Origin: Candidatus Saccharimonadota bacterium
GTDB lineage: Bacteria; Patescibacteriota; Saccharimonadia; Saccharimonadales; Saccharimonadaceae
NCBI GenBank assembly: GCA_017430725.1
Contig: JAFRMK010000006.1
Coordinates: 1-64,000 of the forward strand
DNA: 64,000 nucleotides
Direction: 5' to 3'
Numbering within the stretch: the first letter of the stretch is position 1; every line of letters begins with the position of its first letter. The notes under the pieces were generated by a model that saw only the letters and a list, made by a program, of their open reading frames with translations, did no database searches and was not told the origin of the DNA. Shown here in pieces: positions 3,225 to 63,372 of the stretch. Both the position numbers and the translations under genes were made by a program.

Positions 3225-3968
3225 GTGGCGAAAAAATCATCAGTCACACGTTGGCGTCGGGTTTTTGTTGCGGCAGTCATGGCGCTCGCCTTCAGCGCCT
3301 ATCTCTATTTCAATCCATCCGCCTATCAGGACGCGCAGCTCATTTCGCTCAATCCCTCCGAGATTGCGCTGAAGGAAACGCAAACCACCACAGATTCGCG
3401 CCTCGCCATTGAGGTGCTAGAGAATCTCGCCGTCAAGGAAAAAGACACCTCGGCACGCTATTATCGCAAACTTTTTTATGACAGCTGGAGCCTGACCGCC
3501 GATGGCTGCAATCTCCGTGAGGCCATTTTGAAGCGAGACCTGCAAAACGTCAAACTGAATGGCTGCAAGGTTCAGTCAGGACTGCTGCATGACCCGTACA
3601 CTGGTAAAGACATCAATTTTGTGCGCGGTCAGGACACTTCGGCCGCCGTTCAAATCGACCACGTCGTCGCACTTAGCAACGCCTGGGCGACCGGCGCCTT
3701 CGCATTTGACCAAGATACGCGTTACGCTATCAGCCAAGACCCGCTTAATCTTATCGCGGTCGACGGTCCGGCCAACCAGGACAAGCTCGACCAAGATGTC
3801 TCGACCTGGCTTCCGCCGAATCAGGCCTTTCGCTGCCAATATGTCGCGCGCCAGATTTCCATCAAATACAAATACCATCTCTGGGTAACACCCGCCGAAA
3901 AGGCGGTCATGCTTGAGGTCTTGTCGCTTTGTCCGAACGAGCCTACTCTAGGACTAGATAGTCAGTAA
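3225..3968 (+). CDS. Secreted HNH nuclease (DUF1524-like)
   Basis: About 247 residues with an N-terminal basic segment and one hydrophobic helix (about 13-32), suggesting export or membrane anchoring. The body matches the extracellular HNH family: IDHVVALSNAWATGA is the ββα-metal core, followed by DPLNLIAVDGPANQDKLDQD and a late LWVTPAEK. A role in cutting external DNA for nucleotide scavenging or uptake is inferred. GTG at 3225 follows GGAG at suitable distance; TTG at 3222 is an alternative. The 3' end overlaps the convergent RNase HII gene by 26 nt. Confidence 0.85.
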   Translation: MAKKSSVTRWRRVFVAAVMALAFSAYLYFNPSAYQDAQLISLNPSEIALKETQTTTDSRLAIEVLENLAVKEKDTSARYYRKLFYDSWSLTADGCNLREAILKRDLQNVKLNGCKVQSGLLHDPYTGKDINFVRGQDTSAAVQIDHVVALSNAWATGAFAFDQDTRYAISQDPLNLIAVDGPANQDKLDQDVSTWLPPNQAFRCQYVARQISIKYKYHLWVTPAEKAVMLEVLSLCPNEPTLGLDSQ

Positions 3969-4866
3969 TCCGATAATCACTGCCGCTCACGGCCACCACC
4001 GCCAAACGCAAATCATGCTCGTCGAGCCCTTGTTCTTTCGCGAACAGCTCGGCGCCAAGTCGCATCTTCTCCAACTTTTTTGCGGTAATCGCATCTAGGC
4101 CATCGGACTGCGTAGTCCGGCCGCGATATTTAACTTCCGTAAAATAGAAGACCCCGTTCTTTTGCGTAATAATATCGATTTCGCAATAGCGAGTCTGCCA
4201 GTTGCGCGCCACTACTACGTGCCCTTGCCGGACCAGCGCATCGACCGCCACATCCTCAGCCTTGTCCCCCTTCATTTTGCTGGTCACTTTGTCGCTGCTT
4301 TTTTCGGCAATTTCCGCAATCGGCCGAAAGCTACGCCGATGCTCTGGGCAGAGGCCATATTTCTCGATCGCTTGGCGGTGTTTTGCGGTGCCATAACCGA
4401 CGTGTTTTTCAAAGCCATACCACGGGTATTTTTCCGCCTGCTTTTTCATGTAGTTGTCGCGCGCCACCTTCGCCACAATCGAGGCGGCCGAAACTTCCGG
4501 CACCAACAAGTCAGCCTTTTTCAGGACCTGCACATATGGCGCCAGATGCGTTTCACTCAGGAAATTCACTGTGCCGTCAATAATAATCTCATGAAAGGGG
4601 CAGTGGATTTGCTTCACCGCCATCCGACACGCCTTGCGCAAGGCCTCGCTCAACCCAATCTTATCCAGCTCATCCGCAAACACCCAACCGAGGCCATATT
4701 CGCAGTTTTCGCAGATTTCCTTTGCCAACGCTTCGCGTTTTTTGGCGCTGAGTTTTTTACTGTCCGTCAGCCCCTCGAGCTCACGGCCATCCAGAACCAC
4801 CGCACCCACAACAAGAGGCCCCGCCCAGGGGCCTCTACCAACTTCGTCAATTCCGAGAATCGCCAA
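3943..4866 (-). CDS. rnhB: RNase HII fused to YraN (UPF0102)
   Basis: A 307-residue fusion. Residues 1-190 are RNase HII, which removes RNA primers and misinserted ribonucleotides: GIDEVGRG with D7 and E8, TDSKKLS, and IIIDGTVNF. Residues about 195-307 are a YraN/UPF0102 domain, a predicted PD-(D/E)XK nuclease, with GDKAEDVAVDAL, CEIDIITQ and FTEVKYR. The two are usually separate neighbours; here no stop or start lies between them. It starts 1 nt after the L19 stop, so it is co-transcribed with rplS, the common bacterial order. It is joined through a short Ser/Lys linker. Confidence 0.93.
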   Translation of the reverse strand: MAILGIDEVGRGPWAGPLVVGAVVLDGRELEGLTDSKKLSAKKREALAKEICENCEYGLGWVFADELDKIGLSEALRKACRMAVKQIHCPFHEIIIDGTVNFLSETHLAPYVQVLKKADLLVPEVSAASIVAKVARDNYMKKQAEKYPWYGFEKHVGYGTAKHRQAIEKYGLCPEHRRSFRPIAEIAEKSSDKVTSKMKGDKAEDVAVDALVRQGHVVVARNWQTRYCEIDIITQKNGVFYFTEVKYRGRTTQSDGLDAITAKKLEKMRLGAELFAKEQGLDEHDLRLAVVAVSGSDYRITDYLVLE

Positions 4867-5459: not shown

Positions 5460-7070
5460 TCAGATGACGCGTGAGATTTCGTCCAAAGTTGTGTCGCCCC
5501 GCAGTGCCGCCAGTACGCCTTTTTGTTCCAAAGTCAGCAGGCCTTCCTTGCGCGCCGCCTGTTCGATTGCTTTCGTATCGGTGTCCATGGCGTCTCCGCG
5601 CAGGAAGCGTTGAATCTCATCTGTCACCACCATCTGCTCCATGATAGCCGTGCGTCCATTAAACCCAAAGGGATGCTCGACGCTTGTCTTTTCTCTGTAG
5701 AGCGTAATGTCATCAAGATTATAGTCGTGTTGGACGCCTTCGAGAACGCCCTTTATGTATCTCTTCGTCGCCTCATCGGCTTTGTAGGGTTCCTTGTTGT
5801 CGTCCAGCTTTCGCACCAATCGCTGCGCAATCAACAGACGAATCGAAGAAGCAAATATCGGGTTGACGCCAATCATGTCAATCATGCGCGAAAATGCTGC
5901 CGAGGTTGAGTTGGCATGGAATGATGACAGCACCAAGTGACCAGTAATTGAAGCCTGGATTGCGGTTTTTGCCGTGTCGTTGTCGCGAATCTCGCCCACC
6001 ATCACCACGTCTGGGTCAAGCCGCAGCACGCTGCGCAGGCCTTCTGCGAACGAGCCGCCGCCGTTGGTTTGAATTGGAATCTGCGATATCCCGCCGATGC
6101 CGTATTCAATTGGATCTTCAAGCGTGATGATTTTTCGCTCGGTTGTGTTTAGGGCATTCAGAATCGAATAAAGCGTGGTCGACTTACCGGAACCGGTCGG
6201 CCCCACCATCAGCACCAGCCCGCGCGGGTGGGAAATCACTTCATTAATCTTCTCGCGCTCATCTGGCGTAATGCCCAGCAGATCCAGATTTAGTAGGCTT
6301 TCATCAAAGTTAAACAAGCGCAGCACCGCATCTTGGCCATACATTGTTGGCACCATCTCGACCCTAATATTCAACAGGTGTGTCGAGCCGTTCAGCGTAA
6401 TGTCTTTTTGCATGTGACCAGACTGTGGCTTCGTGCTGGCGGTAGAGATGTTCGCTCGGCTGCTCAACTCGCCCATGAAAATCCGGTAGCGGTCGCGGCT
6501 GATTTCAGCGACCGGATGCAAAATACCATCCACGCGCATTCGAATCCGAATCGCATTTCGCAGGTTTTCGATGTGAATGTCGCTCGCACCAAGCTTGTCG
6601 GCCTGGTCCAACAAATAGTCGAACACTTTCTCGGTCGAAACCTTGTCGAGCGTTTGCGACACTTCCTCGATTGTCTCGCTATCGCCCTCATCGGCAATCT
6701 TGATGTCGTCATAGTGTACTTCCTGCGGTGGGTCGTGCCGCAACATAAATACTTGATAGGCTGAATTGGACACCAGATAGAATTCCACGCGACGCCCATC
6801 GTCGATATAGCTTTGACGCAGGCTATCTATGGCGCTTTTCGGCGTCTGACTGGTCACCAAAAACTGAAACGGCACCGCATCGCCGCCCTTTTGCAGAGGA
6901 ATCATCATATCTCTGTGCATGTCTTCTTTGCTCAGTACGCCCTGTACGAGCGGCGCTGTCTGCTCGAAGTCGCGCGTGTCGAGATACGGCAGGCCCAAAA
7001 TGCCCGCCCTGCGATGCGTAGCTTCTTCTTCATTTTGCCTACGCTTGCGCTGGACTTCTTCTTCGTTCAT
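5460..7070 (-). CDS. pilB: Type IV pilus assembly ATPase (PilB/GspE family)
   Basis: A 536-residue hexameric motor ATPase that drives pilus extension at the inner face of the membrane. After an N-terminal part come the T2SSE core signatures: Walker A GPTGSGKST at 290-298, Asp box and Walker B around LDPDVVMVGEIRD, and the His box SFHANSTSAAFSRMIDM. The CxxC zinc motifs common in PilB are missing from the C-terminal part. The start ATG is 6 nt after a TACAAT -10 box (7077-7082), so the message is probably leaderless. No pilus genes adjoin it; pilins occur at 10.1 kb and 41.6-45.8 kb. Confidence 0.9.
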   Translation of the reverse strand: MNEEEVQRKRRQNEEEATHRRAGILGLPYLDTRDFEQTAPLVQGVLSKEDMHRDMMIPLQKGGDAVPFQFLVTSQTPKSAIDSLRQSYIDDGRRVEFYLVSNSAYQVFMLRHDPPQEVHYDDIKIADEGDSETIEEVSQTLDKVSTEKVFDYLLDQADKLGASDIHIENLRNAIRIRMRVDGILHPVAEISRDRYRIFMGELSSRANISTASTKPQSGHMQKDITLNGSTHLLNIRVEMVPTMYGQDAVLRLFNFDESLLNLDLLGITPDEREKINEVISHPRGLVLMVGPTGSGKSTTLYSILNALNTTERKIITLEDPIEYGIGGISQIPIQTNGGGSFAEGLRSVLRLDPDVVMVGEIRDNDTAKTAIQASITGHLVLSSFHANSTSAAFSRMIDMIGVNPIFASSIRLLIAQRLVRKLDDNKEPYKADEATKRYIKGVLEGVQHDYNLDDITLYREKTSVEHPFGFNGRTAIMEQMVVTDEIQRFLRGDAMDTDTKAIEQAARKEGLLTLEQKGVLAALRGDTTLDEISRVI

Positions 7071-7084
7071 AATCTCATTGTATC

Positions 7085-7606
7085 ATGAAAAAGCTTATCG
7101 TTATTCTGCATAATATCCGTTCGACCTACAATGTTGGCGCCATTTTGCGTAGTTGCGACGGCCTGGGCGTAGACGAAGTGGCGTTCGCCGGCTACACGCC
7201 TTTTCTGGACAAGGGACTTCCGCATGAGCGCGCCAAGCTCGCCAAACAGATTCATAAGACTGCGCTCGGTGCGGAACAGAGTGTGAACTGGCGTCGAATC
7301 GAAGATTTGCCGCGCTTTTTGCGTCAACTTCAGGCGCAGGGATATCGGGTCGCCGCACTCGAGCAGGCCGACGACTCGCGAAACCTAGCCGATGGCTATC
7401 AGCAAGATACCGATTTGGCTTTGATTTTGGGCGAAGAAGTCCACGGCATTCCGGCCGACATCCTCGGCTGCTGCGACGAAGTACTGGAAATACCGATGTG
7501 TGGCCAAAAAGAATCGTTCAATGTCTCGGTTGCGACCAGTATTGCACTTTGGGAAATTAGAAAACCCGTCCTGCACGAAATAGGAACACGTCCACATAGG
7601 ACATAA
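7085..7606 (+). CDS. SpoU-family RNA 2'-O-methyltransferase
   Basis: A 173-residue SAM-dependent methylase with the SPOUT trefoil knot. All three family motifs are visible: NIRSTYNVGAILRSCDGLG, LILGEEVHGI and LEIPMCGQKESFNVSVA. It is compact, lacking the extra N-terminal RNA-binding domain of TrmH/RlmB, and resembles TrmL-size enzymes. The exact rRNA or tRNA target cannot be told. It diverges from pilB across 14 nt, and its 3' end overlaps the convergent membrane-protein gene by 50 nt. Confidence 0.9.
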   Translation: MKKLIVILHNIRSTYNVGAILRSCDGLGVDEVAFAGYTPFLDKGLPHERAKLAKQIHKTALGAEQSVNWRRIEDLPRFLRQLQAQGYRVAALEQADDSRNLADGYQQDTDLALILGEEVHGIPADILGCCDEVLEIPMCGQKESFNVSVATSIALWEIRKPVLHEIGTRPHRT

Positions 7607-8015
7607 TTACGCCGATAACCATCAGATAGCCCCGAACTCCTTCCAGCCAGCCCGCCAATTCGACTGAAGTGTTGTCGAAGCTGAAATAGTCCACTAAAAT
7701 CGACGATGCCAAAATTGTCAGCATGCTGGCAAACACGACGTTCTCGACTATTCTAAGCACGCCAAACAGACCACTGCGGCCAGCCCGCAAATAGAGCAGC
7801 AGTGGCACCAAAATCACAAACAGTGCATACAGGCCCTGTTGTGCCAAGGAAACGTCTATCTGTGAAAACCAGTCATGTAGTGCTTCTGCAAAGCCCGCGC
7901 CGAAGTTCTCATAAACCGCCACCCCAGCAATCATTGCCAAGAACGGCAGTCCGACATTGTGGCGCATTATCAAAAACAACAAGAGAAGAGCCGCCAGTAC
8001 TACGACAAGAACCAT
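7557..8015 (-). CDS. Four-helix membrane protein, unknown
   Basis: A 152-residue protein, mostly hydrophobic, with about four predicted membrane helices (around 2-30, 60-80, 88-108 and 128-148). I recognise no family; CvpA-like proteins have a similar layout but no motif confirms it. The start ATG (8013-8015) lies exactly 6 nt after a TATAAT box (8022-8027), implying a leaderless transcript. It overlaps the spoU gene tail to tail, an arrangement common in this compact genome. Confidence 0.7.
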   Translation of the reverse strand: MVLVVVLAALLLLFLIMRHNVGLPFLAMIAGVAVYENFGAGFAEALHDWFSQIDVSLAQQGLYALFVILVPLLLYLRAGRSGLFGVLRIVENVVFASMLTILASSILVDYFSFDNTSVELAGWLEGVRGYLMVIGVIMSYVDVFLFRAGRVF

Positions 8016-8051
8016 AAGCGAATTATATCATGCTTTCATGAAAAGCAATAT

Positions 8052-8963
8052 TTAGGCGCCTACCCGGTCACGGTGAACCGTGCGCTTGGCATTGTGTTCG
8101 ACGTATTCAATGATTTTGCCGGCCACGTTTCGCCCCGTCACCTTTTCAATGCCAAAACCTGGCGAAGCATTCACTTCCAGCACTAACGGACCACGCTCGG
8201 AGCGCATGATGTCGACGCCCGCCACGCTCAGCCCCATCGCCTTCGCCGCACGCACCGCCATTTTCTCCTCGGTCGGCGTCAGTTTTATCGGCGTGCCACT
8301 GCCACCCTTGTGCAAATTTGACCGAAAATCGTCATCCAGGCTCTGGCGCTTCATACTTGCAATCACTTTGCTCCCCACTACGAAGGCCCGAATATCAGTC
8401 CCGGCCGATTCCTTCACGAATTCTTGCAACAGGATGTTCGTACCGCTCTCGTTTGTCAGATAAAATGCCTGCAGAGTCGACTTAGCGGCTTTTTTGGTCT
8501 CTGCCAACACCACACCGTTGCCGTGCGTGCTGCGCGCCAATTTAATAATCACCGGCGCACCGCCCAATTGGTCTAGCAACTGGTCGATATTAGCCGAGTC
8601 GCGCGATACCACCGTGCGAGGAATATTAATATTATTCTTTGCTAACAGCTGCATCGAGCGCAATTTGTCGCGTGCCCGCGTAATCGCCAACGAGCGCGAC
8701 AAGGTATATTCTCCTTGCATCTCAAGCTGGCGCACAATCATGCAGCCGTAATTTGTCATGTAGGTCGCAATTCGCGGAATAATAGCGTCAAAACGCTCCA
8801 GCGGCTCACCATTGTAATAGACTAGATTATTGTTCGGCTCAATCGAGACATAGCAGTCCTTATATTTGACGATACTGACTTCGTGGCCACGCTGCTCGGC
8901 CTCTTCCTTGAGCCGTTGCGTAGAGTAATTTGACGGCCCATTTGATAGAATCGCGATTTTCAT
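8052..8963 (-). CDS. rimK: RimK-family ATP-grasp ligase
   Basis: A 303-residue ATP-grasp enzyme of the RimK type, which adds glutamate or similar residues to a protein C-terminus or small acceptor. Visible features are the N-terminal pre-ATP-grasp domain beginning MKIAILSNGP, the ATP-binding region with VIIKLARSTHGNGV, and metal-binding VLEVNASPGFG near the end. Its start overlaps the stop of the upstream retropepsin-like gene by 4 nt (ATGA), so the two are translationally coupled. In other bacteria RimK modifies ribosomal protein S6; the substrate here is unproven. Confidence 0.9.
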   Translation of the reverse strand: MKIAILSNGPSNYSTQRLKEEAEQRGHEVSIVKYKDCYVSIEPNNNLVYYNGEPLERFDAIIPRIATYMTNYGCMIVRQLEMQGEYTLSRSLAITRARDKLRSMQLLAKNNINIPRTVVSRDSANIDQLLDQLGGAPVIIKLARSTHGNGVVLAETKKAAKSTLQAFYLTNESGTNILLQEFVKESAGTDIRAFVVGSKVIASMKRQSLDDDFRSNLHKGGSGTPIKLTPTEEKMAVRAAKAMGLSVAGVDIMRSERGPLVLEVNASPGFGIEKVTGRNVAGKIIEYVEHNAKRTVHRDRVGA

Positions 8964-9391
8964 ACGTCGTCTCCTTTCGTGGCATTAACTTCTTTGCTGA
9001 CATCGACAATGAACCGACCGTGCAGACTGCGCCGGCCGATCAATATCGGATAGTTCATTTTTGCTCGGTCGCTCAGGCCAAAATCGGTCTCAAATTCCTG
9101 GTCGCCCAACCGTACCCGAAAGATAACTTTATATTTTCGTACCAGATGCCCCGAAGCACTGCGCACCTCTACGGTGTTGTAATTTTTACAACGGATTATT
9201 TGGCCGGTATAAAGCGGCGAGTGGGGCGCAAAAAGCCGGAAGGCCAGTTGTCCATCTTCTTCAACATGAATGTCGCTAGCCCAAATCGCCGAACCGTCTG
9301 CGCCGGTGTCAATTTTTGCGGGGATATGCTCGGCAATTCCCACGATGTCCACAAAAGCATCGCGCCCAATTGTTTCCAATCCAGTCTCCAT
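8960..9391 (-). CDS. Retropepsin-like protease (RimB/PF05618-like)
   Basis: A 143-residue protein with the aspartic-protease signature KIDTGADGSAIWAS (catalytic Asp about residue 28). The second half has GRRSLHGRFIVDV, as in the family once called ATP-dependent zinc proteases and now linked to RimK as RimB. Such proteins are often encoded beside RimK and are thought to trim or remove poly-glutamate tails. Here the overlap with rimK supports that partnership. ATG at 9391 follows a GGAGA ribosome-binding site. Confidence 0.85.
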   Translation of the reverse strand: METGLETIGRDAFVDIVGIAEHIPAKIDTGADGSAIWASDIHVEEDGQLAFRLFAPHSPLYTGQIIRCKNYNTVEVRSASGHLVRKYKVIFRVRLGDQEFETDFGLSDRAKMNYPILIGRRSLHGRFIVDVSKEVNATKGDDV

Positions 9392-9421
9392 AGCTTTTTC
9401 TCCAATTTTATTATCTCATTT

Positions 9422-9449
9422 TTGACAAAATATGTCAATGTGTTAAAAT
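9422..9449 (+). promoter_or_regulatory. Sigma-70-type promoter for the PH-domain gene
   Basis: TTGACA at 9422-9427, 16-nt spacer and TAAAAT at 9444-9449. An AAAAGGGG ribosome-binding site follows at about 9454-9461 before ATG 9471. It is one of the cleanest consensus promoters in the window and drives a gene with a normal leader. Confidence 0.85.
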
Positions 9450-9470
9450 ATAGAAAAGGGGAGTTTTGCA

Positions 9471-10055
9471 ATGAAGAAAGAGCTGTCTCAAATTAAGCAC
9501 GCCCGCAGCGTGAAGGAATTCCCGAATGTGGATCTAGCGGACGATGAATATGTCGTGATGCACATCGAACGCTCCAGGCTCGGCATTATTATTATCTGGT
9601 TCTTGGTGGCCGTCCTGATTGTCGGCCTAACCTGCGCGCTCTTGATGCTGGTCAATTCAGACATCTCTACCAACAGCTATCTTTCGCTCAACTCGTCCGC
9701 CAAGGGCTATCTTGCGCTCGGCGCCTTTACCTTGTATTTTGCGCTGGTTTTCTGTGGTTTCGCCGGTCAATCCATCTATAATTCTAACCAAATGTACATC
9801 ACTAATCAGCGCGCCATCCAAAAAGTGCGCCGTTCGCTTTTCAACAACTCCACCAACATCATTGAACTTTCCAAAATCGAAGATGTTTCATATCGCCAGC
9901 ACAGTCTCTGGGACCACATCTTCCAGGTCGGCACATTGCGCATGTCCACTGTTGGCGACGAAACAACCTACACTTTTCCTTTCCTCGACACTCCCCACGA
10001 CGAAATTGACCGCATCTCGAAACTGGTGCAGGATAGCCGCCCCGACAAAAAATAG
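9471..10055 (+). CDS. Membrane protein with bacterial PH domain
   Basis: A 194-residue protein. A cytoplasmic N-terminus (about 1-38) is followed by two membrane helices (about 38-62 and 82-106), then a domain resembling bacterial PH (bPH, DUF304-like): NQMYITNQRAIQKVRRSLFNN with SKIEDVSYRQHSLWDHIFQVG and the following strand-rich part. bPH proteins sit at membranes and their function is mostly unknown. The gene stands alone behind a strong promoter and ends against the terminator shared with the convergent pilin gene. Confidence 0.8.
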   Translation: MKKELSQIKHARSVKEFPNVDLADDEYVVMHIERSRLGIIIIWFLVAVLIVGLTCALLMLVNSDISTNSYLSLNSSAKGYLALGAFTLYFALVFCGFAGQSIYNSNQMYITNQRAIQKVRRSLFNNSTNIIELSKIEDVSYRQHSLWDHIFQVGTLRMSTVGDETTYTFPFLDTPHDEIDRISKLVQDSRPDKK

Positions 10056-10562: not shown

Positions 10563-10639
10563 GGCATCGTAGCTCAGTTGGTTAGAGCGTAGGACTCATA
10601 AGCCTAAGGTCGCTGGTTCGATCCCAGCCGATGCTACCA
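10563..10639 (+). tRNA. tRNA-Met (CAT), elongator type
   Basis: A 77-nt cloverleaf with D-loop AGCTCAGTTGGTTAGAGC, anticodon loop CTCATAA, T-arm GCTGG/CCAGC and an encoded CCA. The acceptor stem GGCATCG/CGATGCT has a G-U end pair, and the anticodon stem ends in an A-G mismatch. The 5' end (GGC..CGTAGCTCAGTTGG) resembles bacterial elongator tRNA-Met more than the initiator or tRNA-Ile2. Two other CAT tRNAs lie at 52546 and 53124. Confidence 0.92.
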
Positions 10640-10677: not shown

Positions 10678-10824
10678 TTGCCAAAACCAGCAGGTCTGCT
10701 ATAATAAACATAAGTGTGTTGCCCGAACGGGCAGTGGAAACAAACAAAAATGGCATTAACTGCGAGAACTGGTCAGAAACTCGCTTTTTAGATACGCGAG
10801 CTTAATAGAAAAGGATTAATCTTC
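10678..10824 (+). promoter_or_regulatory. Promoter and structured leader of the DGR target gene
   Basis: TTGCCA (10678-10683), 16-nt spacer and TATAAT (10700-10705) give a leader of about 115 nt. A TGCCC-GAAC-GGGCA hairpin comes first. GCGAG (10762-10766) can then pair with CTCGC (10780-10784) followed by five T residues, a terminator-like form. CTCGC can instead pair with GCGAG (10796-10800), a mutually exclusive anti-terminator form. A 13-codon open frame (ATG 10750 to TAG 10791) ends inside this switch. The ribosome-binding site AAAAGGA lies in the loop of a TTAAT/ATTAA hairpin. This looks like an attenuator; no known class is recognised. Confidence 0.6.
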
Positions 10825-12453
10825 ATGAAAACCACCACCAAACTGGCAAGCTACCTACTATCCACTGCCGTCATGGCCGTCAGTCCGTTTACGGCTTTCG
10901 CCACAGAATCTGCCGGCACCAACGGCATGACCTTCTACGACTACTTGGCCTCAAATGCAGATAAAGACACTGTGATAGATTTTAACCAAGCTCCGACCAC
11001 TGGTAACGAGGTGGACAGTTCCTCTGGCATGGATGTACCCATTTCAGACATCGGTGGCCTGTACATGCTGCAAGACACCAAAGACGACGAAAAGCCAATG
11101 TACTTCTACCGTGGGAACGTCACAGATAACAACGTCATCTTTAACGACTTCTGCTGGCTAATCGTCCGTACCACTGAAACCGGCGGCACCAAGCTCCTCT
11201 ACAACGGTACCCCGACTGATGACGGTCAATGTCTCGGCGACCCGGACTGGACCACGGAAGATACCATAAATGCCATGAATGCTATGTACTCAGCCGACCC
11301 GCCGGTTATGCAAAGCTGGCCAACCACCAATATCGGCGCTGTCCAGTTCAACACCCAGTACAACTCTCCCTCAGATTTCGGCTACATGTACGGCGAACGC
11401 TATGAATCGACCAGTAAGAGCTTCACCAGCACCACCGTCTTCGGCAATGATGTAAGCTACTCCAATGGCACCTACACTCTCCAGGACACCACCACTGGTT
11501 TTGCGAATACGTCGAACGCTCATCACTACACCTGCCTTACTACCTCCACCACCTGCTCTGAAGTATATTATGAAGTTTACCGTTGGAGCGCTTCCGGTTC
11601 GAACGGTTACTTCTTAACTTTCACTGACGGCGACACCCTCGACACGGCACTAGAGAAGATGGCGAAGAACGAACATGACTCCACCATCAAGACGGCCGTC
11701 GAGTCCTGGTACGAAGAAAATATGACGGGCGTCACAGACTATCTCGAAGACACCATCTTCTACGGCAGTAAAACCTTTGCCTCCGGCGCTCTCTCCACCA
11801 AAGATTCCAACTTTGGCTCTAACTTTGATGCGCATGGCTACTCCTACACTGACACCATGCTCGACATCTACTACCACGGCGCCAGCCGTGAAGCGGACAG
11901 CAATCTTCAAGAACCCACGATGAACGCCGTCAATTTCGACTACACGGACCCGAATGGCATCTACACGGTCGCTAACGGCAAGTTAAAGTATCCTGTCGGC
12001 CTCCTTACGAACTCTGAGATGATCCTGGCCGGTAACGGCTATCCCGCCATGGCCAAAAACACTTACATAGATGACAACTTCGTCTGGTGGGGTCTTTCGC
12101 CGTTTGCCTTCGACAACTCTCTCGCGGATGCGGGCAGTGTCCTTGGTCTCTATGGCCTTTCGTACCGCGACGATGTCGGCGATGGGCTTGGTGGTCGTCC
12201 CTCGGTTTCTTTGAAATCCACGCTTGGCGCGCTTGACGGCGATGGGTCCCGTGAAAATCCTTTCACGGGACTCACCGAGTCGTCCTCGAGCGACGACCCG
12301 GCTGATGACCAACCGACCGATGAACCTGATACACCTGAAAGTACCACCCCAGACAACCCGCAAACTGCAGATATGCTCGTCGCGACCGCGGTCTCGGCAA
12401 GCTTCCTGCTCGCGCTTGGCTACCTCGGTTTGCGCAAAACTGCCCGCCGATAG
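10825..12453 (+). CDS. DGR target: secreted, wall-sorted variable protein
   Basis: A 542-residue surface protein. Residues 1-26 are a signal peptide (MKTTTKLASYLLSTAVMAVS, cleavage after AFA). A conserved segment follows (GGLYMLQDTKDDEKPMYFYR, NNVIFNDFCWLIVRTTETGG), a domain seen in Gram-positive surface proteins. Near 415-465 lies a region ending GGRPSVSLKS, like the C-type-lectin-type cores of DGR targets; it contains the variable repeat. The C-terminus has a Pro/Asp/Thr linker, NPQTAD, a membrane helix and KTARR, a sortase-type sorting signal. Avd and the reverse transcriptase follow at once. It probably binds a host or environmental ligand; the ligand is unknown. Confidence 0.88.
   Translation: MKTTTKLASYLLSTAVMAVSPFTAFATESAGTNGMTFYDYLASNADKDTVIDFNQAPTTGNEVDSSSGMDVPISDIGGLYMLQDTKDDEKPMYFYRGNVTDNNVIFNDFCWLIVRTTETGGTKLLYNGTPTDDGQCLGDPDWTTEDTINAMNAMYSADPPVMQSWPTTNIGAVQFNTQYNSPSDFGYMYGERYESTSKSFTSTTVFGNDVSYSNGTYTLQDTTTGFANTSNAHHYTCLTTSTTCSEVYYEVYRWSASGSNGYFLTFTDGDTLDTALEKMAKNEHDSTIKTAVESWYEENMTGVTDYLEDTIFYGSKTFASGALSTKDSNFGSNFDAHGYSYTDTMLDIYYHGASREADSNLQEPTMNAVNFDYTDPNGIYTVANGKLKYPVGLLTNSEMILAGNGYPAMAKNTYIDDNFVWWGLSPFAFDNSLADAGSVLGLYGLSYRDDVGDGLGGRPSVSLKSTLGALDGDGSRENPFTGLTESSSSDDPADDQPTDEPDTPESTTPDNPQTADMLVATAVSASFLLALGYLGLRKTARR
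12082..12201 (+). repeat. DGR variable repeat (VR)
   Basis: These 120 nt (40 codons, GTC to CCC) align without gaps to the template repeat at 14238-14357. There are 27 differences. In 25 the template base is A and the VR base is G, C or T; the other two are T in the template and G in VR (codons 20 and 38). The variable codons are mostly template AAC/AAT, which give VR residues D, S, L, Y, R, G. The adenine-specific pattern is the signature of mutagenic retrohoming. The replaced region encodes the putative ligand-binding end of the protein. Confidence 0.95.
12247..12270 (+). promoter_or_regulatory. Hairpin/cruciform downstream of VR
   Basis: A perfect 10-bp inverted repeat (TCCCGTGAAA / TTTCACGGGA) with a 4-nt loop, 45 nt after the VR end and inside the coding sequence. 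In the phage BPP-1 DGR, a short hairpin with a 4-nt loop just downstream of the target repeat is needed for efficient retrohoming. Position and form fit that role here. Confidence 0.7.
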
Positions 12454-12471
12454 GGTATAATGGTCTGAGGA

Positions 12472-12939
12472 ATGACAAGAAAAACTCAGACTACCAAGGT
12501 TGACTCGGACGCTCGGAAGTCCAAACCTGAGCGTCCGGTTTTGCTGTTCAAAAAGAACGACCTTCTGTCCAACGCCAAATACGGCCAAAATTTTCGTCTT
12601 GAAAATATGATCTATGACCTCGACCGTTATTATCGCCTCTATGTCGCGAACAATATCCCCAGCACCCAGCGCGACCTCCGCATTCACATGTTCGAAGAAA
12701 TCTACCACCTGCACGAAGACGTGTTTTCCGCGACTTTCACGAAAGGCAACATCCGCCGAAAACACCTGTCAGAGATGAAGAAACACATGTCGCTCGTCGA
12801 CATGCTTCTCCGTCACCTCGGTGAACATAAATACGTCAAAGCGCAAAAAATTGAGCATTGCTCGGCATTGCTCTGTGAGATAAAAACTATAGTCTATGGT
12901 TGGGCCAAACGTGAAGAACTTGCCGGCAAAACCAAGTGA
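12472..12939 (+). CDS. avd: DGR accessory variability protein Avd
   Basis: A 155-residue basic protein. After a disordered Lys-rich N-terminus (1-30), residues about 35-150 are predicted almost wholly helical (MIYDLDRYYRLY, MFEEIYHLHEDVF, MKKHMSLVDMLLRHL), consistent with the four-helix Avd/S23 fold. Avd forms a pentameric barrel that binds the reverse transcriptase and template RNA. It begins 18 nt after the target stop and overlaps the RT gene by 44 nt. A TATAAT box lies 10 nt before the ATG, so it may have its own promoter as well. Confidence 0.85.
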   Translation: MTRKTQTTKVDSDARKSKPERPVLLFKKNDLLSNAKYGQNFRLENMIYDLDRYYRLYVANNIPSTQRDLRIHMFEEIYHLHEDVFSATFTKGNIRRKHLSEMKKHMSLVDMLLRHLGEHKYVKAQKIEHCSALLCEIKTIVYGWAKREELAGKTK

Positions 12940-14191
12940 TTTCCAGTCGACCCTGACTCTGGAAAACCTCCAAGACGCCTGGCATACGGTGCGCCGTACC
13001 TGCAACAACAAGCGCAATCTTTACGCCTTTGACCTAAACGACCACGCAAACCTCTATAAAATCCTCCAGGAGCTCCGCACCGGCACTTACCGCCCCGACC
13101 CATACTATCCGTTCATGATTTTCGAGCCGAAGCCCCGTCTCGTCATGAGTCAATCGATTCGAGATAAAGTCGTGAACCACTATTTCGCCAAGCAAATCCT
13201 CATGCCGACCCTCGAAGGCGAGCTCATCGACGCGAATTGCGCCACCCGTAAAAACATGGGCACTTCCTACGCTATCAAACTGGTCAAACACTACTTCGGC
13301 CAGCTCTCCCAGCGCGAACCATACCAAGAAATCTATGCCCTGAAGCTCGACATCAGCAAGTATTTTTACACCATCGACCACGCCGTCCTCCTGGAAAAGG
13401 TCCAAAAGCATCTCCACGACCCCGAAGCGCTCGAAATCCTTCGGCGCATCGTCTCTGAGACCGACCAGTCGTATATCAATCAGGCCGTCAAAGCCAACAA
13501 TGCCAGATACGGCACCGATATTCCTTATTACCAGCAGGGCAAAGGCTTGAGCATCGGAGCGATGACGAGCCAATTTCTCGCCATCTTTTACCTGTCCGAC
13601 CTCGACCACTTTATTACCGAGGCACTCGGTTGTCGCTATTTTGCCCGCTACATGGACGACTTCCTTATTCTTTCGACTGACAAGTCCGAGCTTCGTCGCA
13701 TCTGGCGTACGCTTGAGGCCAAGCTCGCTTCGGAATATCTACTGACCCTGAATCCCAAAACCGAAATTTTCTGTTGTCGCCGGGGCTTCAATTTCCTCGG
13801 TTTTCGTTTCCGGGTTACCGACAATCGGCTCCGGGTCTCAATGGCGCGCAAAACCCGCCAACGCGTCCGTCACCGCCTGGCCATAAGAGCAAAAACAGAT
13901 TATTTGGACTATCGCCACAGCTTATCCAGTTATTACGGATATTGGTTGGCAGTCGACCATCGTCGCGCCGTCGCCCAACGCCCAGATTTTCACATCTCAA
14001 CCGCCGACCTCCTGCGCCATTACCCAAATCGCCCGAGCGAGACCAACTTCGTTCTGGAGGGTGCTCGGCTTCACCCGCACGGCGATGTTTTCACCGGTTT
14101 CTCGGCCGATTTATTGCTGACAGAGCTGAGCCTTCCTGAATATGACTGCATTAATCTCGTGCGTCCAGTCAGTCGAACTAGCTTGTGCTAG
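12896..14191 (+). CDS. DGR reverse transcriptase
   Basis: A 431-residue RT. It carries the first catalytic Asp in YALKLDISKYF (about D152), the motif KGLSIGAMTSQFLA (217-229) in place of the fingers motif 4 of other RTs, the catalytic YMDD (252-255), and FLGFRF (299-304). It has no maturase, RNase H or integrase domain, as expected for DGR RTs. Together with Avd it would copy TR RNA with frequent errors at A and deliver the cDNA to VR. The ATG at 12896 lies within avd; the first residues could be trimmed by a later start. The TR follows 46 nt after the stop. Confidence 0.95.
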   Translation: MVGPNVKNLPAKPSDFQSTLTLENLQDAWHTVRRTCNNKRNLYAFDLNDHANLYKILQELRTGTYRPDPYYPFMIFEPKPRLVMSQSIRDKVVNHYFAKQILMPTLEGELIDANCATRKNMGTSYAIKLVKHYFGQLSQREPYQEIYALKLDISKYFYTIDHAVLLEKVQKHLHDPEALEILRRIVSETDQSYINQAVKANNARYGTDIPYYQQGKGLSIGAMTSQFLAIFYLSDLDHFITEALGCRYFARYMDDFLILSTDKSELRRIWRTLEAKLASEYLLTLNPKTEIFCCRRGFNFLGFRFRVTDNRLRVSMARKTRQRVRHRLAIRAKTDYLDYRHSLSSYYGYWLAVDHRRAVAQRPDFHISTADLLRHYPNRPSETNFVLEGARLHPHGDVFTGFSADLLLTELSLPEYDCINLVRPVSRTSLC

Positions 14192-14237
14192 GATGGTATT
14201 GGGGCATTTCCACACTAAAGGGTGTCCATTCGCCTTC

Positions 14238-14357
14238 ATCTGGTGAGGTCTTTCGCCGATTGACTTCAACAACAATAACGCGAATGCGGGCAATTTCAAT
14301 GGTCTCAATGGCAATTCGAACAACAACAATGTCAACAATGGGATTGGTGTTCGTCCC
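14238..14357 (+). repeat. DGR template repeat (TR)
   Basis: A 120-nt template, 93/120 identical to VR 12082-12201. Read in the VR frame it is dense in AAC and AAT codons (15 of 40) and holds a TGA that becomes TGG in VR. AAY codons let A-mutagenesis reach many amino acids without making stops, a usual DGR design. It is non-coding, on the same strand as RT and downstream of it. Homology stops at about the CCC codon, after which TR continues into a T-rich stretch. Confidence 0.95.
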
Positions 14358-14530
14358 TATTTTCTTTTTCGTTTTTCTTCGTCTCAAAGCTTAGGCTCAT
14401 GGCGTTGCCATGTCAGAGCCACGGCGAGTAACCATTGTACCTTAGAACGACAGAAAAACTGTAGTACAAGAAGAAACAGGAACTGTCCCTGTTGCCGTTT
14501 TTGGCAACAAAAACCGCGCCATAGTCTCAC
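14358..14530 (+). ncRNA. Structured spacer after TR
   Basis: Gene-free DNA between TR and glgB. It contains a T-rich stretch (14358-14382), a long hairpin GGCTC-ATGGC-GTT-GCCAT-GTCA-GAGCC (14394-14420), and GTTGCC/GGCAAC with a GTTTTT loop (14491-14508). In the studied BPP-1 element the RNA just downstream of TR is needed for cDNA priming and RT-Avd binding, so this is the natural candidate here. The last hairpin could also end glgB transcription, but no T run follows it on that strand. Confidence 0.5.
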
Positions 14531-14534
14531 CGGC

Positions 14535-53547: not shown

Positions 53548-55668
53548 ATGAAATCATTATTGAAGCCAATCCTCTTGGCGGTTGCCGGGATTTTTATCGG
53601 AAGCCTCCTATCTCCGTCCAGTGCTAGTGCATCAGATGGCTTTATGATACCTGGCTTTAATGGCATTCCTCTGACGTTTTCGGATAATATAAGGGATAAA
53701 CTTCCAACTCTCTCGCAAAACAATGGCTGTGGCACCGCCGACGCGAGCTCTTCCGTAAATTGCAATCTCGAGTCTGAAGATAGGGGCACTATTCTACCAA
53801 ATGAAACGCCAAAAACGATGAATAACTGGGGCCATGACGGTAAAGGGATAATATTTGCGGATAGTAACACTTATCTTAAAGATAAAAGTGGCCAGACCGA
53901 TCCTCAAGCTCGAACTGCACATAGCGGAGACCTTATTGGCTATTCGGTCAAAGTTGAGGCCACTAACTGGTATAACGGGGGAGAGGAAACGTTACCCTTC
54001 TACAGATACCAAGTGAAGGTGGGGCTAGAAGAGGGGATGACGGTCGATCCGTCCACTATTGTCGCATCGGTCGGCGGGGATAGATTAAATACATCTGAAT
54101 ATGAATACGAAATTAGCGATTCAAGCGGTGGATACTATACCGGTTTTTATTCGGATAATGTGCAGGTTCTTACGATTACGATCCCTTGGGCAACATACAC
54201 GCGAACTGCTCAAATGTATGGCCCTAATACGATTGACGGCTTTATCTACTCATTGGACGAATTTATTTATGAGGATAACTCAACAATCGAGGTTACTTTT
54301 TCTGCAAAAGTCGACAAAGATACCGGCTCACTCTCAGCAAAAGCCGCTTTTCGGGGCGGATTAATAACAAACAAAGTGACGATGGAGCTAGGCAGTGACA
54401 ACATAGAGAGCCTTTCAATCGATTCTGAAAACGGAACTATTCCTACTGCAACAGCATGGCTAGACGGAGGCCTACTAATAAAGCGCATAGGCGTCGACGG
54501 CCAGCCGGTGGAGGGCGCAAAATATGTTATTAATGACGTCAAAGCGAGCCTTAGCGACAGAGGCGAATACGAATATGATCCTTTGGGCGACATAACGGAA
54601 TTTGTAACAAACGAAAAAGGCGAAGCGATAATAAAAAACGTCCCCATTGGGACATATTCCGTGACGGAAGTTAGCTCTCCAGACGGAAGTGTAGCTCAAA
54701 CACATACGATAGCTCATAATCTCGAAAAAGATCTTTTGCCCACGCAGTATGGCGAGAGGAACTATAGTTTCAATCTGTTCAATGAAAAAGGAACGGATGT
54801 GACAGACTGTATTGAAAAATTTTCTGATGGAACAAAGGCTCTAAACTATTTATGTGTCTATAGGATAGCCGCCGGATACGATATGGGAGACGGCATGGCA
54901 TATTATGACGAAGAAAAACAATCCTACGCATCTCTTCTTGGAGATGTGGTCAAGGAGGGGGAGGAGTATATTATAGGCGGTGCGGACGGAGCTCACATGG
55001 AATACAGTCCAGAACTCGGACGCTATAGATTTGCAATGTCGCTAAGCGACACCCTTGGAGAAATGTCTTCGGGTAGCGATTCTGGCCTCTCGACAAAGCT
55101 TAACGTTGAGAAAAATGCTGACGGAACTGCATCATTTTCGATGTTCGGTATCATTTTTAATGACCTACCTTTCGATGAAAAAACGAACTGCTATAGCGGA
55201 ACTACTGAACAAAACGGGTCGTCGCACGAGTTTTCTTTCTGCGAAGACGGTGACGGTTATTTAGTTAGGAGTGGAAACGAATCTTCATATCTTTTGGCAA
55301 AAAAGGTCAATGATAATGAATACGATCTGAACTATGACGTTTTATATTATGACATCGAGGAAATTGACGACAGTACCATAAAAATAGGAATGTACCTGCC
55401 AATGCTATGGAGCAAGTATCTAGATACCTATCTCGTTTCACCAGCAGGAAGCGATATAGAACTTGTAGCAATGGATTTTTCATATCGTGAAATCATGGCG
55501 ACCAGCTACCTATTTGTTGGCATCCCGTTAAACGATGAAACTACACCCGAAGAAATTCCATCTAACCCTCAAACCACCGACCCCATCCTCCTCCCCCTGA
55601 TAACCCTCACCGCACTTGGCCTAACGATTCTTGCTTCAAAACAACTAGCCTTAAAGGGGAGGAAATAG
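53548..55668 (+). CDS. NPQT-motif surface protein, paralogue of 16608
   Basis: A 706-residue secreted protein: a signal peptide (MKSLLKPILLAVAGIFIGSL, cleaved after SASA), NNWGHDGKGIIFADSN and RTAHSGDLIGYSVK, a CnaB/SpaA-like domain (about 310-395; GAKYVINDVKASLSD, GTYSVTEVSSPDG), and two Cys repeats (TNCYSGTTEQ..CEDGDGYL). The end is NPQTTD, a membrane helix and LKGRK. Layout and start agree with the gene at 16608-18581. It lies inside the inverted-repeat segment, in DNA with lower GC and different codon choice than the core genes. Confidence 0.85.
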   Translation: MKSLLKPILLAVAGIFIGSLLSPSSASASDGFMIPGFNGIPLTFSDNIRDKLPTLSQNNGCGTADASSSVNCNLESEDRGTILPNETPKTMNNWGHDGKGIIFADSNTYLKDKSGQTDPQARTAHSGDLIGYSVKVEATNWYNGGEETLPFYRYQVKVGLEEGMTVDPSTIVASVGGDRLNTSEYEYEISDSSGGYYTGFYSDNVQVLTITIPWATYTRTAQMYGPNTIDGFIYSLDEFIYEDNSTIEVTFSAKVDKDTGSLSAKAAFRGGLITNKVTMELGSDNIESLSIDSENGTIPTATAWLDGGLLIKRIGVDGQPVEGAKYVINDVKASLSDRGEYEYDPLGDITEFVTNEKGEAIIKNVPIGTYSVTEVSSPDGSVAQTHTIAHNLEKDLLPTQYGERNYSFNLFNEKGTDVTDCIEKFSDGTKALNYLCVYRIAAGYDMGDGMAYYDEEKQSYASLLGDVVKEGEEYIIGGADGAHMEYSPELGRYRFAMSLSDTLGEMSSGSDSGLSTKLNVEKNADGTASFSMFGIIFNDLPFDEKTNCYSGTTEQNGSSHEFSFCEDGDGYLVRSGNESSYLLAKKVNDNEYDLNYDVLYYDIEEIDDSTIKIGMYLPMLWSKYLDTYLVSPAGSDIELVAMDFSYREIMATSYLFVGIPLNDETTPEEIPSNPQTTDPILLPLITLTALGLTILASKQLALKGRK

Positions 55669-55678
55669 GGGAGAGACT

Positions 55679-57375
55679 ATGAGAACTACTAAACTGGCAA
55701 GCTACCTACTAGCCACTGCCGTCATGGCCGTCAGCCCGTTTACGGCTTTCGCCACCGAAGGCTCCGGCACGGCACCAACGGTCTCTCCTTTTACGATTAC
55801 CTCGCCTCCAAAGCGGACAAGGATACCGTGATAGATTTCAATGAAGCGCCGGCGACGGGGAATGAAGTCAACAACGATTTTGGCACGACCATACCGGTGA
55901 GTGATATCGGTGGCCTCTACATGCTTCAATCCACTAAAGACGACGAGAAGCCAGTCTATTTCTACCGTGGGAATGTGAAAGACAACAACGTCATCCTGAA
56001 CGACTTCTGCTGGCTGATGGTTCGGACGACCGAAACTGGGGGCACGAAACTCATCTATAACGGCACGCCAACTGAAGACGGGCAGTGCTTGGGCGATCCG
56101 GATTGGACAATCGAGAGCCTCGAAAGTGCATATACCTCTTCTGGCCTTACTTCCGTGCCTAAAACAAATATCGGCATCTCAAAGTTTAATAACAAAATGA
56201 ACTCCCCGGCAGATCTTTACTATATGTACGGTGAACGGTTTGAGTCCCAGAAAATAACTTTCAGCTCAGGAACGTATTTCGGCAATGACGTCGAATATGT
56301 AAACAGAGCCTATACGCTGAAGGATACGGTGACGGTCAGTAACTATAACGAGTCTCTCGTTGCCTCAAATGGCCACCATTATTCTTGCACAACAACCAGC
56401 ACTACGTGTTCGACCGTCCATTATGCAACTTATCCGATTAACTCAAGTTATGGTTATTTTATTACGCTTTCTAATGGCGATACTTACGAGACCGCCTTGG
56501 AAAAAATGATGACCAACGAAAATGAATCAACCGCAAAACGGACAATTGAACGGTGGTTTTCTTCGAATATGGTGGATGCCATTGATTTACTGGAAGATAC
56601 GACGTGGAATAGCCAAAAGGCATTCGAATCTGGTACGCTTAGATCAAAAAATGTCAATACTAAGAGCGAATATGACGAATATAATATTTCAAAGGAGATA
56701 ATCGATGCCTATTATTACGGGATTGAGCGGGATGATAGAAACGCTTTGCCCCTAATGCATGAACTCCTTCCAGAAGATGACGATAACAGCGAAGGGCAAA
56801 ACTCCTCGATAGACTACAATATCGAATACCTTGGTTATAATTCTCACGTGTCGCTTGGTTGTCCTGTAAAAAAAGATTGCTATACAGTTGATTCTACGGA
56901 CGGAAATGGAGCACTCTCGTATCCCGTTGGGATGTTGACTACCTCTGAAATGCTACTGGCGGGCAATGGCTATCCTAGCATGGTTGAGGGAACGTATCTT
57001 GACGACGATTCGATATGGTGGCTACTGACTCCGTTCATGTTTGTGGGCAGTTCGGGAGGCGTAGGAGACTTTTTCGGGCCTTATGGGCAGGCAATGTGCG
57101 CCAATCCAGACAAGAGCTATGGGCTTCGCCCCGCAGTATCTTTGAATAATATGGTTGTTGCGCTTGAAGGAGACGGGAGCCCGTCATCTCCGTTTGCGAA
57201 TTTGATGGTTGTTTCTGACGAAGAAGAGACGCCTAGTTCTGAAACTAAGGAGGATGAGGAAGAGGCTACGCCCATAAACCCCCAAACCTCCGACACTCTC
57301 ATCAAAGCCGCCTGCATCATCCTCGCCACGACAACTTCCGCATATATTATCGGGCGTAAACTCTCTCGCAGATAG
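55679..57375 (+). pseudogene. Frameshifted paralogue of the DGR target
   Basis: ATG 55679 after GGGGAG opens a frame with a signal peptide (MRTTKLASYLLATAVMAVSP), but a doubled GGCAC (55766-55775) shifts it and it ends at 55829-55831. The other frame continues the homology (DYLASKADKDTVIDFNEAPA) to 57375, with GGLYMLQSTKDDEKPVYFYR, GLRPAVSLNN and NPQTSD plus membrane helix. From GTG 55828 it would give 515 residues with no signal. Removing 5 bp gives a full gene of about 563 residues. It could be dead or switchable by slippage. The lectin-like end does not match TR. Confidence 0.8.
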
Positions 57376-57625
57376 ATTGAATCCGTTCCTGTATAGACAT
57401 TAATCTCGGGACATTTTGATGGGGGCGTAACGGCTTGTAGCGGCTTGGGGCCATTCCTGCACTTTCTACGATTTGGGCTCTATAGAGAAGACGCCATTTA
57501 CATTAGGCCTCGCTTTTTGCGGAAAAAGTGTACATAAGCACATTAAATCCGCCGAATTAGTGCGTTTTTCTACACTTTTTCCTAGAAAATAGTATAATCA
57601 GGGCGTAATCAATGAAGGAATTAAT
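57376..57625 (+). promoter_or_regulatory. Repeat block and inverted-repeat operator before the ATPase gene
   Basis: The stretch holds GTAACGGCTTG-type repeats (57426-57450), then a perfect 12-bp inverted repeat GGAAAAAGTGTA (57521-57532) / TACACTTTTTCC (57571-57582) with inner GCAC/GTGC pairing. A TATAAT box follows at 57593-57598. It could be a regulator's operator or an RNA hairpin. A start codon for the ATPase lies at 57626 after GAAGGA. Confidence 0.6.
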
Positions 57626-58954
57626 ATGTATCGGAGCAAAATTGAATCACTCGTTGCGTGGAAGAACTCGACAAGGCGGAAACCCCTCATCTTAAACGGA
57701 GCAAGGCAGGTTGGGAAGACCTGGCTGTTGAGAGAGTTTGGTGAGCGATACTACGATTCGGTGGCATATATTAATTTAGACAATAATGAAACAGCCAAGC
57801 GGTTGTTCGATCTGGACTTCGATATTGAGCGCATCATCAATGGGCTCGAGCTGCTCTCTGGTATCAAAATCATGCCGGGCAATACCATTATCGTCTTGGA
57901 TGAAATACAGGAGTGCCCCAAGGCACTGGCTTCGTTGAAATACTTCTATGAAACAGCACCAGATTACCATGTTGCGGTAGCGGGCAGTCTACTTGGCGTC
58001 GCAAAACATGCGGGAACATCATATCCGGTGGGGAAAGTCCAAACCATTGACCTCCACCCTCTGACGTTTTCAGAGTTTGTTCGTGCGAGCGCCAGTTCCT
58101 CGCTCGCCGATGCTCTGGACAGAGCCGACCTGACTTCACTTGAGCCTTTCCACGCAAAGCTGATTGATCTGCTGAAACACTATCTCGTCATTGGCGGAAT
58201 GCCTGAAGTGGTCCAATCGTACGTTGACGAGGGAAATGTTCTAGCCGTGCGCAAGATTCAAAAACAAATCCTCCGGGATTATGAAGGGGATTTTTCTAAG
58301 CACGCCCCATACAATCTTACGCCGAGGCTACTCGAGATTTTCAATATTATTCCGGCAGAATTGGCGAAAGAGAACAAAAAATTCATCTTTAAAATGATTC
58401 GAACGGGCGCAAGGGCCGCCGAGTATGAAAGCGCACTTTTGTGGCTTGAGGACGCAGGGGTTGTTCGGCGCGTACATCGGGTAAGTGCGGCTAAAATGCC
58501 CCTTAAGGCGTACGCAGAACGTGAAGCGTTCAAGCTCTACCTGTCCGATGTTGGTCTGCTCGGCGCGCAGGCAGACTTAGCACCTGAAGTCATTCTTGAG
58601 GGTGACCGCTTGTTTACTGAGTTTAAGGGCGCCATGGCGGAACAATTCGCCCTTCAGGAGTTGGTCGCCACCGGCTATAAACCCCTCTACTACAAAAAAG
58701 ATAAACCAAGTCGTGAGGTAGATTACATTCTGGATCTAGGACACCAATTGTTGCCATTGGAAATCAAATCTGGAAAAGGCTCTTCGGGCAAGTCTCTCGC
58801 CGAGTTCGTAGAAGAAAACTCGATTTCTCGAGCGTTCAAACTCACTACTCAGACCCTCCACATCCGCAGAACAAGTGCTATAGACTACGTGCCACTCTAC
58901 CTGTGCTCAAAGGTAAAAGAAATATCCGAATTAACCAAACGGGAAGCTGGTTAG
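57626..58954 (+). CDS. AAA ATPase with DUF4143
   Basis: A 442-residue protein of the AAA_14-DUF4143 type. Walker A is NGARQVGKTWLL, Walker B is IIVLDEIQEC, and AVAGSLLGV is the sensor-like motif. The C-terminal DUF4143 part carries EVDYIL..LLPLEIKSG, a PD-(D/E)XK nuclease-like core. These proteins are common in bacteria with mobile-looking spread; their role is not established, though defence or toxin-like roles have been suggested. It lies inside the inverted-repeat segment between surface-protein genes and has its own operator-like upstream region. Confidence 0.9.
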   Translation: MYRSKIESLVAWKNSTRRKPLILNGARQVGKTWLLREFGERYYDSVAYINLDNNETAKRLFDLDFDIERIINGLELLSGIKIMPGNTIIVLDEIQECPKALASLKYFYETAPDYHVAVAGSLLGVAKHAGTSYPVGKVQTIDLHPLTFSEFVRASASSSLADALDRADLTSLEPFHAKLIDLLKHYLVIGGMPEVVQSYVDEGNVLAVRKIQKQILRDYEGDFSKHAPYNLTPRLLEIFNIIPAELAKENKKFIFKMIRTGARAAEYESALLWLEDAGVVRRVHRVSAAKMPLKAYAEREAFKLYLSDVGLLGAQADLAPEVILEGDRLFTEFKGAMAEQFALQELVATGYKPLYYKKDKPSREVDYILDLGHQLLPLEIKSGKGSSGKSLAEFVEENSISRAFKLTTQTLHIRRTSAIDYVPLYLCSKVKEISELTKREAG

Positions 58955-58974
58955 GAGATTCAAAATAAAAGTAA

Positions 58975-59051
58975 CAGGGGAGTGTAACGGCTTGTAACGG
59001 CATGTACGGCTTGTAACGGCTTGGGTATTTTATGGCCCGTTTCGTTTATGG
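58975..59051. repeat. GTAACGGCTTG repeats and right inverted repeat
   Basis: Four tandem GTAACGGC-type units (58984-59022) run into the right-hand copy of the 41-bp inverted repeat (59011-59051, mate at 53299-53339). The units are also found at 57426-57450 and in inverse form at 53331-53365. The region lies between the convergent 3' ends of the ATPase and surface-protein genes. Confidence 0.8.
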
Positions 59052-59065
59052 TTTTGGCTTGGTGT

Positions 59066-61282: not shown

Positions 61283-61286
61283 GGTT

Positions 61287-63371: not shown

Positions 63372-63372
63372 C

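Follow-up and report, generated by a model that had tools for sequence, protein, structure and literature searches.

The 64,000-nt stretch of DNA analysed here (the window) carries, beyond reasonable doubt, a diversity-generating retroelement (DGR). Taken as a whole, the evidence is very probably best explained by a complete and probably functional chromosomal DGR that diversifies an anchored surface protein. Its parts and the features around them are as follows.

10563-10639, plus strand: tRNA-Met (CAT), bordering the cassette insertion
10678-10705, plus strand: putative sigma-70-like promoter, TTGCCA-16-TATAAT, preceding the target (11/12 consensus matches; TG before the -10)
10825-12453, plus strand: target gene, 542 aa, with signal peptide, C-terminal DUF6273-type VR domain, acidic/proline linker and NPQTAD
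12082-12201, plus strand: variable repeat (VR), from the direct-repeat search and alignment with TR, to which its identity extends over 12079-12202
12194-12209, plus strand: IMH-like VR 3' end, GTCGTCCCTCGGTTTC, from junction comparison
12246-12271, plus strand: DNA hairpin/cruciform GTCCCGTGAAA-ATCC-TTTCACGGGAC, 11-bp stem, 44 nt past VR
12355-12372, plus strand: sortase-type motif NPQTAD, then a hydrophobic stretch and RR
12472-12939, plus strand: Avd (accessory variability determinant), 155 aa, from profile matches; overlaps the RT start
12896-14191, plus strand: DGR reverse transcriptase (RT), 431 aa, with YMDD and a SIGAMTSQ motif, from domain and homology searches
14238-14357, plus strand: template repeat (TR), 35 A, AAY-rich, with one in-frame TGA (14244-14246)
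14358-14534, plus strand: TR 3' spacer, the proposed template-RNA structure and priming region

A sequence-only reading of this DNA had described a complete DGR in one strand order, and this is borne out: the target with its VR, Avd, the YMDD-bearing RT and TR are all co-oriented, and both RT and Avd have profile matches. The RT matches RVT_1 (2.6e-18) and the PHROG family 'Reverse transcriptase' (phrog_1423, 1.1e-83), and its best PDB match by sequence is 8ub7 (6e-35), which we take to be the BPP-1 enzyme. The nearest RT homologues adjoin TR/VR pairs of their own. Avd matches bAvd (4.2e-7), DivGenRetAVD (4.8e-7) and phrog_3206 ('Avd protein of DGR', 3.3e-7), with scores for the first two that fall under the curated Pfam and NCBIfam cut-offs. 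Both genes are open reading frames and the catalytic residues of the RT are present. The TR begins 47 nt past the RT stop on the same strand, in agreement with the earlier placement of TR downstream of RT; the order is identical in G022, a sister species of the same genus, and the arrangement is already known (DiGReF group 2). The promoter-like site at 10678 stands behind a terminator-like site that follows the tRNA-Met.

The strongest direct repeat of the region is 125 nt long (12078-12202 and 14234-14358, 78% identity), and an A-specific repeat scan recovers this pair as well as comparable TR/VR pairs at many RT homologues. VR and TR differ at 27 positions, 25 of which are template adenines, exactly as the first reading had counted; with adenine making up 35 of the 120 TR bases, the bias has a p value of about 1e-15 (hypergeometric). 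The changes at TR adenines are A>G in 11 cases, A>T in 7 and A>C in 7, and the two other differences are both T>G (12139 and 12194). As the G022 TR has T at each of these two sites, both arose in the VR. In G022 itself 25 of 25 VR/TR differences lie at adenines. Changes at non-adenine positions, far from being as common as those at adenines, thus number only 2 of 27 in the window and none of 25 in G022. A search of the genome for further VR targets of the window TR found none besides its own VR, the third match being the TR of a second DGR.

Altogether 25 of the 35 TR adenines are altered in the VR. Both adenines are changed in 6 of the 14 altered AAY codons (43%) and in 6 of the 21 differing codons overall (29%), so that the proportion of "nearly half" given earlier for differing codons holds for altered AAY codons and fails for all differing ones; these double changes are about as frequent as independent change of each adenine gives at 25/35. 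The G022 TR has A at 19 of the 25 differing window positions, making a VR-side change clear for those, while at the remaining six (the TGA included) it has G or T. Of the 28 adenine positions common to the two TRs, the two VRs agree at 7, the quarter that independent randomisation would give. The divergence of VR from TR is that of a saturated repeat and, judged from the alignment, shows past diversification and tells nothing of current activity. One strongly mutagenic event and many rounds look alike, so saturation cannot separate them; of the "active or repeated diversification" proposed before, past diversification stands and current activity does not follow.

The two repeats part company at the 3' end of the VR, which reads TCGGTTTC where the TR reads TATTTTC, and the CGTCCC junction is common to both DGRs of the genome. 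The hairpin beyond it is part of the reading frame (within GSRENPFTG) and has counterparts in G022, in the second DGR (contig C7) and in two gut Bacilli loci (L006 and L009), at distances from VR of +44 in the window, +45 in G022, +111 in C7, +114 in L006 and +96 in L009. All five have the same apex, GAAA-(AYCC or TCCT)-TTTC, with outer stems that differ in sequence yet are complementary. In nine paralogues without a DGR the corresponding stretch forms no stem longer than 7 bp, and of 3000 segments of 170 nt drawn at random from the window, 13 reach 11 bp. Elsewhere in the near clade, L007 has a hairpin of a different type (8 bp, loop GAA), L008 just A+T-rich stems further away and L011 at most 7 bp. 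The hairpin is in frame in the window and G022, where it encodes part of GSRENPFT because the protein continues to a wall anchor, and lies past the stop codon in C7, L006 and L009. A transcription terminator is ruled out by its position inside the reading frame and by the lack of a T-run. Hairpins of phage DGRs have the consensus loop GRNA and lie 4-34 bp from VR (Guo 2011). Since the loop here is unlike GRNA and the distances of 44-114 nt exceed those of phages, the GAAA-AYCC-TTTC hairpins look like a loop class of their own.

The spacer 3' of the TR has a conserved organisation as well. In the window, 14361-14369 (TTTCTTTTT) can pair with 14468-14476 (AAGAAGAAA), after which comes CAGG. Each of the nine TRs of the near clade (window, G022, C7, L005-L009 and L011) is followed by a GAAAC/GAAAT element, usually GTGAAACAG, which can base-pair through its 5' side with the TTTC... 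beginning at the TR junction (IMH*). Across 13 loci this pairing is kept despite sequence change: on average 6.5 of the 7 pairs form, compared with 4.8 when partners are swapped; 0 of 100,000 permutations reached the 13-locus value and the near clade gave p 0.0016, which is good evidence yet not independent evidence, as the anchors were picked once the pattern had been seen and the loci share ancestry. When the longest spacer helix was sought without anchors and compared with shuffled sequences, the signal was weak for single loci and gave a Wilcoxon p of 0.015 across the clade. In BPP-1 an adenine of the TR spacer primes the cDNA at IMH* (PMC12875486), a scheme that the GAAAC pairing would fit. 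The conserved element suggests that the downstream TR came along with its own spacer.

On these grounds, the TR and its 3' spacer would be transcribed to give a template RNA, with Avd and RT binding the spacer. The cDNA would start at the TR 3' junction (IMH*), be randomised opposite template adenines and then replace the target VR, guided by the shared CGTCCC junction and the DNA hairpin 44 nt past the VR. The conserved hairpin and the spacer pairing offer concrete elements for probing retrohoming outside the phage model.

The TGA codon of the TR (14244-14246) bears on whether such a device would still run. The matching VR codon is TGG, as the first reading had noted, whereas the TGA, which it took as altered in the VR, is better read as a change on the TR side: G022 has TGG in both TR and VR, and as the sister TR and both VRs agree, the simplest history is that G became A in the TR of the window. 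If copied faithfully, the TGA would stop the target in the variable domain before the anchor, so each homing would need its A changed, in which case the codon would encode W or C. It may be a mild cost, have an on/off effect or mark the onset of decay. A DGR that has only recently fallen idle, with a drifting TR and a VR that has become a fixed surface-protein sequence, would account for this TGA, for the G or T of the sister TR at six window adenine differences and for the two T>G changes in the VR. We consider it rather unlikely, because the RT and Avd frames are open with catalytic residues present, hairpin, junction and spacer pairing are all intact, and the TR retains 35 adenines, mostly within AAY codons and 28 of them at positions common to G022.

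The target has the features of a surface protein. The sequence-only reading had recognised a sortase-type signal on it, which is upheld by NPQTAD with the following hydrophobic stretch and RR, by seven exact NPQTxD-type sites in the window, where chance would give 0.21 even if one mismatch were tolerated, and by sortase genes in the genome (three above the cut-off and one weaker). This supports a secreted and diversified surface protein, which would be anchored by sortase. An open-access literature search for DGRs combined with sortase found none, which says nothing beyond that literature. The region in common with Bacilli DGR targets is conserved; DUF6273 is matched by 6 of 16 alignment members, and the window target is linked to DUF6273 only through these relatives. 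Two structure predictions gave low confidence (pLDDT 39 and 48) and a PDB fold search had no match. As the DUF6273 domain of gut phage DGR targets has been modelled as C-lectin-like, we infer by analogy that the VR domain may be C-lectin-like too. No target relatives were found in viral contigs.

The outcome of diversification would be a stream of variants in which the DUF6273 (C-lectin-like) domain presents a variable face, most likely to bind surface ligands, whether those of partner cells or those found in the gut environment; recognition of a partner cell or host is plausible. The target could instead be diversified for escape from phages or predators for which it is the receptor. Cellular DGR targets may act as virus receptors (Roux et al. 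2021), and the anatomy alone fits binding and escape equally and cannot separate them. We nonetheless think escape improbable, given that the DUF6273/C-lectin domains in known DGR targets count as binding modules and that sister genomes carry an expanded set of the related non-DGR family, in the manner of adhesin families. Some genus members without this DGR (G018, G029 and G040; loci L080-L094) have at least 14 scored matches to the target family per genome and the two DGR carriers one or two genes, a suggestive contrast in counts that fragmented matches inflate and in which many same-genus genomes have no match at all. For the partner-binding role that we prefer, the secretion signal and wall anchor make both the surface location and the binding directly testable.

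The window also holds a paralogue of the target (55682-57375, plus strand, 60% identical) that has no TR-like VR. Close to 55770 a tandem CGGCACGGCAC interrupts its frame, leaving the signal-peptide part and the body in different frames, which would make it a pseudogene, a phase switch or an assembly error. Both strands of 53548-63999 encode a succession of large surface proteins with SpaA domains and NPQTxD endings, amid which there is an AAA_14/DUF4143 ATPase gene (57626-58954).

The genome that carries the DGR is 0.69 Mb in 10 contigs and of the gut-type Saccharibacteria. Compared along its full length, a PilB/PulE-type window protein shares 72-73% identity with two named Saccharibacteria (L007 and L011); two genomes of Bacilli and one of Cloacimonadota give at most 38% or no match, so that by this marker the genome groups with named Saccharibacteria. 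The label "epibiont" given to it earlier is thus good for taxonomy and goes no further.

Nine relatives (L115-L123) keep the gene order rplS, PilB-like, trmL, rimK-like, bPH, pilin, tRNA-Met and glgB, and none of the nine, G022 among them, has DGR genes between tRNA-Met and glgB. In the window, 3.9 kb with every DGR part sits between these two genes, and the tRNA-Met beside it is on the strand opposite to its place in the relatives. G022 has the same cassette at a different chromosomal place, with the same gene order, a target 69% identical and an RT 58% identical; substitution sites between the two RTs are saturated and dN/dS has no value. In the search for a reciprocal empty site, the flanking genes of the G022 cassette were not found in the window genome. 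This comparison with relatives shows that DGR and target moved jointly in a single cassette, and on that basis the target, Avd, RT and TR with spacer can be taken to travel as a 3.9-kb unit. No integrase was seen around the window DGR, and its neighbours are tRNA-Met, a pilin-like gene, a bPH protein and glgB; a phage-borne DGR was rejected, there being no phage structural or integrase genes among these neighbours. Only the window genome and G022 have a DGR of this type among 45 genomes of the genus. One other genome of the genus has an RT-like remnant with TGA and TAA stops (L074, G028:C5, 10735-10953), possibly a decayed RT.

A second DGR lies on contig C7 of the same genome (L045, G000:C7, 1-2217), in the commoner order VR-TR-Avd-RT; one organism with two DGR architectures has already been reported (PMC3521204). 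Its parts are as follows.

Contig start: VR (partial) and target end
321-444: TR
645-1061: Avd
1015-2217: RT, 51% identical to the window RT

The contig begins inside the VR, perhaps because the population is heterogeneous there or just because of the repeat. Downstream of the RT the contig encodes a tip-pilin-like VWA protein, a further surface protein and a sortase-like product, in a pilus-like cluster at 5878-9990. At this locus 21 of 22 VR/TR differences lie at adenines. Ordinary duplication or gene conversion between two repeats, without mutagenic reverse transcription, would give two similar repeats in the same orientation and is refuted, as near to certainty as such data allow, by the base specificity at adenines (25/27 in the window, 25/25 in G022 and 21/22 in C7) next to adjacent RT and Avd genes.

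The RT tree groups the window with G022, C7, L007 and L011 (98/98) within a gut-Bacilli clade (100/99), a topology that leaves the direction of transfer unsettled and some near-clade forks open. The remaining Saccharibacteria RTs fall elsewhere, several with their own TR/VR. Among the distant ones, L050, L053, L056, L062 and L064 have A-specific TR/VR pairs, some with YGDD in the active site, and are separate DGR lineages in the order. One Cloacimonadota locus (L030) has one TR and two VRs several kilobases apart (9063-9176, 3943-4056 and 7459-7548).

These observations can be joined in a tentative history, to which we give somewhat less than even credence. A gut Bacilli/Saccharibacteria DGR lineage, with its own hairpin class (GAAA-AYCC-TTTC) and a TR-plus-spacer RNA moving as a unit, may have become in one Saccharibacteria genus a site-changing cassette of target, Avd, RT and TR, without a mobility gene, that diversifies a sortase-anchored adhesin; some cassette-less sisters carry many fixed adhesin copies. 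The device itself is of a known kind; what is new is that it was inserted as a self-contained cassette, that its target bears a sortase-type anchor and that it is kin to gut-Bacilli elements. It has been argued that DGRs aid the host attachment of ultra-small episymbionts, while the described CPR targets are usually without recognisable anchors (Roux 2021).

Among known systems, the BPP-1 DGR (mtd/avd/brt) shares with the window VR, TR, Avd, RT and adenine mutagenesis, a hairpin downstream of VR (Guo 2011) and a TR 3' spacer, an internal adenine of which primes the cDNA at IMH* in BPP-1 (PMC12875486). It differs in that the window TR is downstream of the RT, the target is a bacterial wall-anchored protein with the VR internal to the gene, and the hairpin lies in a coding frame with the loop AYCC rather than the phage consensus GRNA. 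A TR downstream of the RT is shared with DiGReF structural group 2, whose published members are mostly cyanobacterial (PMC3521204), whereas the window RT belongs to a gut Bacilli/Saccharibacteria clade. The DUF6273 targets of gut phages (tentaclins, Faecalibacterium prophages) likewise have the VR in a DUF6273-type domain, but are phage proteins without a wall anchor. Patescibacteria (CPR) DGR clade 2 (Roux 2021) shares the host superphylum; targets of clade 2 are typically without recognisable membrane or conserved domains (Roux 2021), whereas the window target has a signal peptide and a sortase signal. The gut Bacilli MAG DGRs (L005, L006, L008 and L009) have the nearest RTs outside Saccharibacteria, a homologous target domain, the spacer motif GTGAAAC and, in L006 and L009, the same hairpin apex. 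They differ from the window in a TR upstream of the RT, a target that ends shortly after the VR without a wall-anchor tail, a hairpin past the target stop codon and loci of 27-33% GC.
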